Positions 10,157 to 14,279 of a stretch of 64,000 nucleotides of DNA are shown piece by piece. Both the position numbers and the translations under genes were made by a program. The notes under the pieces were generated by a model that was not told the origin of the DNA, made no database searches, and worked only from the letters and a program-made list of their open reading frames with translations. Source of the DNA: Leptolyngbya sp. PCC 6406 (GTDB taxonomy: Bacteria; Cyanobacteriota; Cyanobacteriia; Phormidesmidales; Phormidesmidaceae); NCBI RefSeq assembly GCF_000332095.2, contig NZ_KI913949.1:2829373-2893372 (forward strand). Reading direction: 5' to 3'. The number at the start of each line of letters is the position of its first letter. Positions within the stretch are counted from its first letter, which is position 1.

Positions 10157-11032
10157 CTATCGGGCACTAACGACCCCTAGACAAGGCTGAACCTGTGGCA
10201 TCGGTTGGGGAATGTGACGACCCACCGCCGCTGCAATGGGTCGCAGGTGATCCACGAGTGCCACCATCGCCTCCAGGGATAGTGCCTGCCGTGCATCAGA
10301 CACCGACGCCTCCGGAACCGGATGACATTCCACCATCACCCCGTCAGCCCCCGCCGCGATCGCAGCCTGGGCCAACCCCAGCACCAACTCTCGCTTCCCT
10401 GTCGCGTGGCTGGGGTCCACAATCACTGGTAGATGGGTGATTTGCTTCAGGGCCACCACCGCCCCCAAGTCCAGAACATTACGGGTATAGGGGTCAAAAC
10501 TGCGAATGCCCCGTTCACAGAGAATCACCTGAGTATTGCCGTGGGCCGCAATGTATTCCGCCGCCATGACGAACTCCTCCAGCGTGGCCGCTAGCCCCCG
10601 CTTCAGCACCACAGGCTTATCCACCTGCCCCAACGCCTTCAGCAGGTCAAAATTTTGCATATTGCGGCTGCCCACTTGGAGGACATCAGCATGGGTTGCG
10701 ATCGCATCGATCTGGTGCATCGCCATCACCTCCGTAATCACCGGCACCCGGTACAAACGGCGCACCCGATCTAGAATCGCCAGCCCGTTTTCCCCCAGCC
10801 CTTGGAAGCTGTAGGGAGACGTGCGAGGCTTGAAGACCCCACCCCGGAGCGCCTGCACCGGAGCCGCTGCCAAAGCCTTAGCCACGGTTTCCATTTGCTC
10901 TAGACTCTCCACAGCACAGGGACCACCCACAATCAGCAACTCAGGGCCACCCACCGTAACCTCAGGGGTCAAGTGAATCACGGTAGTCGGTACAGTAGCG
11001 TCAGTTTTAGCGATCAGTTTGGCGTTTTGCAT
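10157..11032 (-). CDS. aroF: 3-deoxy-7-phosphoheptulonate (DAHP) synthase, type I-beta
   Basis: A 291-residue enzyme that condenses phosphoenolpyruvate and erythrose 4-phosphate, the first step of the shikimate pathway. Visible motifs are VGGPCAVES, FKPRTSPYSFQG, QVGSRNMQNF, VLKRG, CERGIRSFDPYTRN, DPSHATGKRELV and GVMVECHP. The barrel begins near residue 34, so there is no N-terminal ferredoxin-like or chorismate-mutase domain of the kind that gives feedback inhibition in other members of this class. The 5' leader (11033-11467) contains two apparent aromatic-amino-acid attenuators, so expression is probably controlled by the supply of Phe, Tyr and Trp. Confidence 0.95.
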   Translation of the reverse strand: MQNAKLIAKTDATVPTTVIHLTPEVTVGGPELLIVGGPCAVESLEQMETVAKALAAAPVQALRGGVFKPRTSPYSFQGLGENGLAILDRVRRLYRVPVITEVMAMHQIDAIATHADVLQVGSRNMQNFDLLKALGQVDKPVVLKRGLAATLEEFVMAAEYIAAHGNTQVILCERGIRSFDPYTRNVLDLGAVVALKQITHLPVIVDPSHATGKRELVLGLAQAAIAAGADGVMVECHPVPEASVSDARQALSLEAMVALVDHLRPIAAAVGRHIPQPMPQVQPCLGVVSAR

Positions 11033-11150: not shown

Positions 11151-11184
11151 AAAAAGCCCTGGAACCGGGGGCGGCTCCAGGGCT
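11151..11184 (-). terminator. Attenuator 2: intrinsic terminator in the aroF leader
   Basis: Read on the minus strand, AGCCCTGGAGCC pairs with GGTTCCAGGGCT (one G-U pair, 6-nt loop) and is followed at once by TTTTTG. It lies between leader peptide 2 and aroF. The 5' arm contains GGAGCC, which can instead pair with GGCTCC in the last codons of leader peptide 2 (plus positions 11213-11218 with 11173-11178), giving a competing antiterminator. Confidence 0.82.
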
Positions 11185-11206
11185 GATCATCGGGCACCAT
11201 GCCGAG

Positions 11207-11275
11207 TCACCCGGAGCCTGTCCCGGCAAAAAAGTAAAACCAAAAACCGTAGGTGGAACTAGGGAAATAGGACAT
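11207..11275 (-). CDS. Attenuator leader peptide 2 (aromatic-rich, 22 codons)
   Basis: The ATG at 11275 opens a 22-codon frame that ends at a TGA at 11207. Residues 9-16 read YGFWFYFF, with YF at residues 3-4, so 9 of 22 residues are aromatic. The frame is followed by 22 nt and then the terminator at 11151-11184. Its last codons (GGC TCC GGG) are complementary to the 5' arm of that terminator. This is the standard layout of a ribosome-mediated attenuator. The ribosome binding site is weak. Confidence 0.82.
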   Translation of the reverse strand: MSYFPSSTYGFWFYFFAGTGSG

Positions 11276-11311
11276 GGGGAAACTCACGGTAGAGACTGGG
11301 GCAGGCGGTGG

Positions 11312-11349
11312 CCTAAAAACGCAAAAACCGCAGAGGGGACTCTGCGGTT
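11312..11349 (-). terminator. Attenuator 1: intrinsic terminator in the aroF leader
   Basis: Read on the minus strand, AACCGCAGAG and CTCTGCGGTT form a perfect 10-bp stem with a 4-nt loop, followed by TTTTTGCGTTTTT. It lies 28 nt after the stop codon of leader peptide 1. GTGAACC, which overlaps the foot of the 5' arm, can instead pair with GGTTCAC in codons 18-20 of leader peptide 1 (plus positions 11346-11352 with 11387-11393). Confidence 0.87.
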
Positions 11350-11377
11350 CACTGGGGGTGGTCAGCACAAGCTGAAT

Positions 11378-11446
11378 TCACGACCCGTGAACCCTGCTAA
11401 ACCACCAAAAATAGAAAAAAGAAACTTGTGCCGTCAAGGACTGCAT
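11378..11446 (-). CDS. Attenuator leader peptide 1 (FFYFWWF, 22 codons)
   Basis: The ATG at 11446 opens a 22-codon frame that ends at a TGA at 11378. Residues 10-16 are seven consecutive aromatics, FFYFWWF. It has the same length (69 bp with stop) as leader peptide 2. It starts about 21 nt after the predicted transcription start and is followed by an intrinsic terminator. Such runs occur in the pheA and trp leader peptides of other bacteria, where the ribosome stalls when charged tRNA is scarce. The product itself probably has no other role. Confidence 0.87.
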   Translation of the reverse strand: MQSLTAQVSFFYFWWFSRVHGS

Positions 11447-11474
11447 GGATTGCCTGTGCTATGACCTGCTGGTT

Positions 11475-11504
11475 AGCGTAACAACCCCCTCCCGAAAACG
11501 TCAA
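11475..11504 (-). promoter_or_regulatory. aroF: Predicted promoter of the aroF leader
   Basis: On the minus strand TTGACG (11504-11499) and TACGCT (11480-11475) are 18 bp apart. Transcription would start near 11467, about 20 nt before leader peptide 1. The -35 is close to consensus and the -10 is moderate. Confidence 0.6.
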
Positions 11505-13557
<2,053 letters not shown>

Positions 13558-13628: not shown

Positions 13629-14279
13629 GTATGACCTCACCCTATGGCTTAGCCTGCCCGATAGGGCTTAGGGCTTAGGGGTGAGGGCCAAGATGTGTGG
13701 ACACAGCAGTCCCAAGGGCAGAGCCAGGGTAAGGGAAGTTTCTTCCGGGCATTACCTAACATTTTGAGTTGGGTCGGTTGCTCCGCAGGAGCAACCGAGT
13801 TGTATAGCCCTTCGGGCAATAGCCGACCGGGGAACCACCCACCACCGCGAGCAACCGCCCTGGGGAGCAACCGAGTTGTATAGCCCTTCGGGCAATAGCC
13901 TCCGGCATGGCTACGCTAAGGCTAACGCTAGGGCGGAGCCTGCCCGGAGGGCATAGGACAAGCAAGGGATTGCCCCTACGCGACATCTTGCATTGGGCGC
14001 GGAAACCGCGCCCCTACCCCAAAGCCCACACACGGGTCACCCGGCAACAAGGGCAACCACAAGGGATTGAACGTAGGGGCAATCCTGGATTACCCGGCAC
14101 TGGGTAGGGCGGGTTTTGAGCCTCCCATCCTGAATTACCCGCTACATAAGGGCTAAACCCGCCCCTACAGGATTTACCCCACCACCCCATCACCCCATCA
14201 CCCCATCACCCCATCACCCCACCCTTGCCCCCCGCCACCACGATCGCCATCATAGGAACATCCCCTAGAGACCCCCGTT
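13629..14279. repeat. Gene-free repeat cluster
   Basis: A 37-bp direct repeat containing GGAGCAACCGAGTTGTATAG occurs at 13788-13824 and exactly again at 13864-13900. A GGGCGCGGaaaCCGCGCCC palindrome lies near 13994. TAGGGGCGGGTT and AACCCGCCCCTA form an inverted pair at about 14105-14168. ACCCCATC units repeat four or more times at about 14176-14220. No gene is seen. Confidence 0.7.

Follow-up and report, generated by a model that had tools for sequence, protein, structure and literature searches.

How might expression of aroF, the gene for a DAHP synthase at the entry to the shikimate pathway, follow the supply of aromatic amino acids, and why should its leader carry two peptides rich in aromatic codons rather than one? 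The window analysed here is a single stretch of DNA of 64,000 nt, in which aroF lies on the minus strand (10157..11032, start at 11032). It encodes a short type I-beta DAHP synthase of 291 aa, matching TIGR01361 and PRK08673 above cut-off as well as PF00793. Very probably, the leader preceding this gene consists of two complete ribosome-mediated transcription attenuators placed in series, which would sense a shortage of any aromatic aminoacyl-tRNA.

Anatomy of the aroF leader

Direct reading of the minus strand identified a promoter (11475..11504), with a -35 box TTGACG (11504-11499) and a -10 box TACGCT (11480-11475) separated by an 18-nt spacer, and downstream of it a first leader peptide of 22 codons, MQSLTAQVSFFYFWWFSRVHGS (11378..11446). 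The final codons of this peptide contain the 5' arm of antiterminator 1 (A1, GGTTCACGGG; 11384..11393), which pairs with a 3' arm (C1, CCC-A-GTGAACC; 11346..11356) recognised by reading and folding. C1 in turn overlaps the 5' arm of intrinsic terminator 1 (11325..11350), which is delineated by folding and covariation and has a U tract after it. The second unit follows on the same strand, with a directly read leader peptide of 22 codons, MSYFPSSTYGFWFYFFAGTGSG (11207..11275), the arm A2 within its final codons (GGCTCCGGG; 11210..11218), the pairing arm C2 (CCC-T-GGAGCC; 11173..11182, by reading and folding) and, overlapped by C2 at its 5' arm, intrinsic terminator 2 with its U tract (11155..11184, by folding and covariation). 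In both units, the antiterminator forms when the peptide's final codons pair with the 5' arm of the terminator belonging to that unit. The sequence-only reading had proposed precisely this order of promoter, peptide, antiterminator and terminator, the last three occurring twice before aroF, and we verified it base by base; its description of two units alike in architecture, each with a 22-codon peptide, agrees with direct reading as well. It had also described a bulged base beside the CCC, which is seen in the window but is not general in unit 1, where the helix is bulge-free in most relatives. By eye, no clear Shine-Dalgarno sequence was found in the window upstream of peptide 1 or peptide 2, which counts against the attenuator reading.

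In the window sequence, the folds of terminators 1 and 2 have energies of -17.1 kcal/mol (z -6.8) and -25.4 kcal/mol (z -6.4), respectively, while the antiterminator hairpins reach -23.8 kcal/mol (z -4.9) in unit 1 and -23.2 kcal/mol (z -2.2, weak when taken alone) in unit 2. The neighbourhood of the leader contains a GTAGGGGCGCGGTTTCCGCGCC-type repeat, present in four minus-strand copies (window 11510-11619 and 13996-14017), three of which are clustered between groEL and the aroF promoter. At another locus, L001 (6345-6602), a group I intron (Rfam RF00028) was recorded, which is unrelated to the leader.

Conservation and covariation among AroF relatives

We collected 110 loci encoding close AroF relatives and used the 106 with at least 200 nt of upstream sequence; near-duplicate loci are present, leaving 94 distinct sequences in unit 1 and 97 in unit 2. 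In 104 of the 106 there is a first leader peptide that follows the pattern ..FYFWF..VH..stop, with its aromatic core and VH ending, and 102 of these 104 also carry a unit 2 peptide (..WFYGFYFW..SG-stop). An intrinsic terminator follows every peptide examined (104/104 in unit 1, 102/102 in unit 2), and 102 of the 106 relatives possess both units with their terminators. The exceptions to the tandem arrangement are L013 and L015, with unit 2 only, and the Calothrix loci L035 and L054, whose unit 2 peptide has no stop before the terminator. In the latter two, the peptide 2 frame, about 200 nt upstream of aroF, lacks a stop after the GGG and stays open for 44 codons, as far as the terminator's end; here unit 2 may either be in decay or work in another way. 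Open reading frames in which five or more of six residues are aromatic number 1.8 per 450 nt of upstream sequence, versus 0.06 in dinucleotide Markov simulations. Similarly, a promoter matching TTGA[CT]-N16-19-TAnnnT no more than 150 nt upstream of peptide 1 is present in 99 of 103 relatives versus 3 of 104 shuffled controls.

Covariation was counted at named pairs, using 40 aligned sequences for unit 1 and 37 for unit 2. For antiterminator 1, 94.3% of cells are paired and 37 are compensatory (both sides changed), with a covariation score matched in none of 500 shuffles; sliding the paired columns by at least one position reduces pairing to 54% or less. Terminator 1 has 95.3% of cells paired and 13 compensatory cells, and terminator 2 has 90.0% and 36, respectively. 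For antiterminator 2 the figures are 90.9% and 20, the covariation score again being matched in 0/500 shuffles. In the 37-sequence alignment neither the number of covarying pairs nor that of pair types exceeds shuffles for this helix, and so its support comes from the covariation score, the proportion of cells paired and the cells changed on both sides. Since both antiterminators and both terminators covary, one segment C is constrained by two partners. The sequence-only reading had suggested looking for such covariation in both terminator/antiterminator pairs, and all four helices display it across relatives. That reading had also staked itself on conservation in close relatives, where the peptides, stems and aromatic codons indeed proved to be conserved, so that the idea survives strongly.

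The specificity of the pairing can also be appreciated from duplex energies. Outside the invariant core, cognate A:C duplexes of unit 1 have a mean of -19.4 kcal/mol versus -16.0 kcal/mol for partners swapped between species, and the cognate mean lies below the lowest of 5000 permutation means (-17.3 kcal/mol). The two units are mostly orthogonal to each other, with cognate duplex medians of -23.0 and -18.4 kcal/mol versus -13.2 and -9.6 kcal/mol for the cross duplexes, although the separation is smaller in the window itself (A1:C1 -17.3 versus A1:C2 -15.4). In part of the tree, for example L019, unit 1 shows a possible extra pairing, GGNGGTT:AACCNCC, with 75.7% of cells paired and some covariation. 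It could represent an anti-antiterminator, sequestering arm A and forcing termination when peptide 1 is untranslated.

Ribosome position and the probable signal

The arrangement suggests the following course of events. In each unit, a ribosome close behind RNA polymerase would translate a short ORF in which codons for Phe, Tyr and Trp are clustered. With all three charged tRNAs in ample supply, the ribosome at the stop codon would cover arm A, segments C and D would pair, and the intrinsic terminator would end transcription. Should any aromatic aminoacyl-tRNA be scarce, the ribosome would stall in the aromatic run and A would pair with C before D is made, in which case no terminator would form. 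As the polymerase would have to pass both units before aroF, readthrough would be roughly the product of the two, which would provide a tighter off-state and a steeper response.

The geometry of this scheme was explored with a footprint model in which the RNA is masked through the 13th nucleotide beyond the A-site codon's first base and A:C pairs are counted before segment D is transcribed. A ribosome placed early in the aromatic run allows some 12-15 A:C pairs for unit 1 and roughly 10 for unit 2; at codon -4 from the stop or later, essentially none is available in either unit. Aromatic codons fill most of the positions between -12 and -7, and in both units their share falls from 83-91% at position -7 to 4% at position -6. 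Computationally, the aromatic run ends in both units where the footprint of a stalled ribosome begins to cover arm A. A stall at the last aromatic codon would yield a weaker antiterminator, and therefore the earlier aromatic codons should matter most. With peptides, terminators, antiterminators and promoter all conserved, and with covariation and ribosome geometry in agreement, the central proposal of the sequence-only reading, two complete ribosome-mediated attenuators, is supported.

Equilibrium folding counts against the attenuator reading, as in the window the terminator prevails despite stalled ribosomes (terminator probability approximately 0.55-0.98). The equilibrium terminator probability under ribosome masks thus discriminates poorly as a measure of the switch, intrinsic terminators being dominant, and the number of A:C pairs able to form ahead of D's transcription was used instead. 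Dominance of the terminator at full equilibrium implies that the decision would be taken during transcription, through co-transcriptional kinetics. Classical attenuators likewise decide during transcription.

The composition of the peptides provides clues on the signal. Phe, Tyr and Trp are all present in 99% of distinct unit 1 peptides and in 100% of those of unit 2, with a single exception overall, and the core contains on average 5.9 (unit 1) and 7.0 (unit 2) aromatic codons. Among the distinct peptides of the relatives, F, Y and W interchange by position while aromaticity stays. This predicts that a shortage of any one aromatic aminoacyl-tRNA would relieve termination, and it favours slow decoding over arrest by the nascent chain. 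The latter would entail TnaC-like sensing of the free amino acid, and we consider it very unlikely. Arrest peptides, too, control termination via a stalled ribosome, and the VH and SG endings are conserved. However, besides the exchange of F, Y and W at each position, the flanking residues are variable, and the conserved endings correspond to the base-paired arm A, the residues shifting with A where it shifts (L092 and L100, unit 2).

Could a single unit suffice to couple aroF to aromatic supply, the other being a relic or a constitutive partial terminator? Leaders with one unit do exist (L013, L015 and L170 with unit 2 only, L171 with unit 1 only), and the two Calothrix loci with a stop-less unit 2 peptide fit the same idea. 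Nevertheless, both units retain an open frame, a run of aromatic codons, a terminator and a covarying antiterminator in 102 of 106 loci across the AroF tree, and a relic would have decayed; we regard this explanation as improbable. Even more remote is some other RNA mechanism (a T-box, a riboswitch, Rho-dependent termination or translational control) to which the peptides would be incidental. The leader is structured and has terminators, and leader RNAs 5' of aromatic genes in Firmicutes are often T-boxes. Yet neither a T-box nor any Rfam leader family (Trp_leader, Phe_leader and others) found a match in the window or in nine related loci, and the leaders combine codon-sized indels with conserved aromatic codons, thus indicating coding selection on the peptides.

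Evolutionary distribution and known attenuators

To survey the phylum, covariance models for unit 1 (R1) and unit 2 (R2) were run on 291 genomes alongside a protein search. The short AroF is found in 29 genomes, with unit 1 in 28 and unit 2 in 28, one match each; G163 (L171) has unit 1 only and G190 (L170) unit 2 only. A further genome outside the 29, G085, has unit 1 directly 5' of a truncated aroF remnant (L172, G085:C48:74041-74146), where a deletion apparently took unit 2 together with the beginning of aroF. In the window's own order, unit 1 is present in 44 of 59 genomes, including G013, which has no AroF match and carries unit 1 near a contig end. On the AroF tree, single-unit loci branch from within the tandem ones; the genome that keeps only unit 1 and the one that keeps only unit 2 group as sisters with 96/85 support. 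Thus, their common ancestor most simply had both units, and the tandem looks ancestral in that part of the tree. Weak R2 matches outside Cyanobacteriia in G071, G171 and G217 have no DAHP synthase gene nearby and were judged to be chance; a fourth, in G279, is a real single attenuator. In both the 291-genome and the own-order scans each model matches once per genome and never cross-hits the other unit. The idea that the leader holds a tandem duplicated unit finds no backing here: the units have no detectable sequence homology and are not recognised by each other's models, and an origin by duplication is therefore not supported.

The enzyme itself offers a plausible explanation for regulation at this level. 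The window AroF shows no match to PF18152, the ferredoxin-like regulatory domain; its stop-to-stop frame of only 304 codons leaves no room for this domain at the N-terminus, and the upstream room is also too short in most relatives (median 18 residues). The window genome, cyanobacterial to judge from its relatives, has one further, more distant DAHP synthase (PF00793), upstream of which no aromatic leader ORF was found, and no type II DAHP synthase. Across the phylum, the longer DAHP synthase paralogues carry PF18152 in 6 of 6 cases examined, and an aromatic leader with terminator was found at none of the 39 sampled. In a sister class outside Cyanobacteriia, a single aromatic attenuator precedes a short DAHP synthase of that class in all four genomes found (L176, L218, L219 and L220; leader peptide, e.g., NSYYFFWFYLNHAGGR, with terminator). 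This enzyme is 42% identical to the window AroF, and L176, the sole one tested, is without PF18152. As a rule, aromatic amino acids do not inhibit type I-beta DAHP synthases that lack the regulatory domain; the Thermotoga maritima enzyme possesses the ferredoxin-like domain, and Phe and Tyr inhibit it (PMC6362186). Because AroF has no ferredoxin-like allosteric domain, we infer that attenuation stands in for allosteric feedback inhibition at aroF. In the cases seen so far, the domain-less enzymes have an attenuator and those with the allosteric domain lack one, a pattern suggesting that RNA-level feedback is traded for protein-level feedback at the head of the shikimate pathway.

In this context, we put forward a broader scenario, which we hold to be evenly balanced between right and wrong. 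Two attenuators in series would be ancestral to a broad cyanobacterial AroF clade, acting as a multiplicative, steep gate for any aromatic and substituting for the missing allosteric domain, while the single-unit version would have arisen or persisted on the independent domain-less enzyme of the sister class. With the pair conserved across many families and natural one-unit variants at hand, the question of why there are two in series is directly testable. The leader would also be a switch to remove or reuse in engineering cyanobacterial production of aromatics.

Classical leader-peptide attenuation is textbook biology. The aroF leader displays the features of a trp-type attenuator, namely an ORF rich in pathway codons, a terminator between ORF and gene, a mutually exclusive antiterminator and, computationally, the stall geometry. 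With the E. coli trp, pheA and pheST leaders it shares codons for the end products and mutually exclusive antiterminator and intrinsic terminator structures. In trp-type leaders of E. coli, segment 2 is found near or beyond the stop codon, and there is also a 1:2 hairpin. In contrast, arm A of each aroF unit is part of the peptide's final codons and its direct partner is the terminator arm. Moreover, the E. coli leaders comprise a single unit, usually for one amino acid, whereas the aroF leader has two units and codons for three aromatics.

In the open-licence full-text literature we found neither a description of leader-peptide attenuation from cyanobacteria nor a system in which two complete attenuators follow one another and respond to the same signal. 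The suggestion that the arrangement was undescribed thus stands for cyanobacteria within that literature, but single aroF leader attenuators (in Corynebacterium and, as a proposal, Acholeplasma) and the tandem leader ORFs of mgtCBR are known. The closest in gene context is aroR-aroF of Corynebacterium glutamicum, where, according to PMC11802643 (on Neshat et al. 2014) and PMC4046766, a Phe-Tyr-Phe leader peptide precedes the DAHP synthase gene and Phe limitation stalls the ribosome and increases readthrough. It resembles the window in having an aromatic leader peptide upstream of such a gene but differs in its single unit, its short FYF motif and its phylum; no Trp codons are described for it, and the two systems show no evidence of a common origin. 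In Acholeplasma, the uORFC-13-1 motif (24 sequences, computational only) likewise places a predicted Phe-containing uORF and a terminator before aroF (PMC8632094), but as a single unit and in a different phylum. The Salmonella mgtCBR leader is similar in that two leader ORFs control transcription of one operon; however, mgtM and mgtP respond to separate signals (ATP and proline) with additive effect (PMC3641672), whereas both aroF units carry F, Y and W codons, and would thus, judged by codon content, share their signals. That study contrasts mgtCBR with metE, whose leader has two terminators (PMC3641672); set against mgtCBR, the aroF leader has one terminator per unit. Tandem riboswitches such as that of B. 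clausii metE, as cited in PMC3641672, do have two sensing units in series and two terminators, but in that account they are metabolite-binding RNAs operating without leader peptide or ribosome, whereas the aroF leader would be ribosome-mediated. On the best reading, therefore, the aroF leader works like a trp-type attenuator, and what sets it apart is that arm A falls within the final codons of each peptide and that two complete units for the same signals follow one another.
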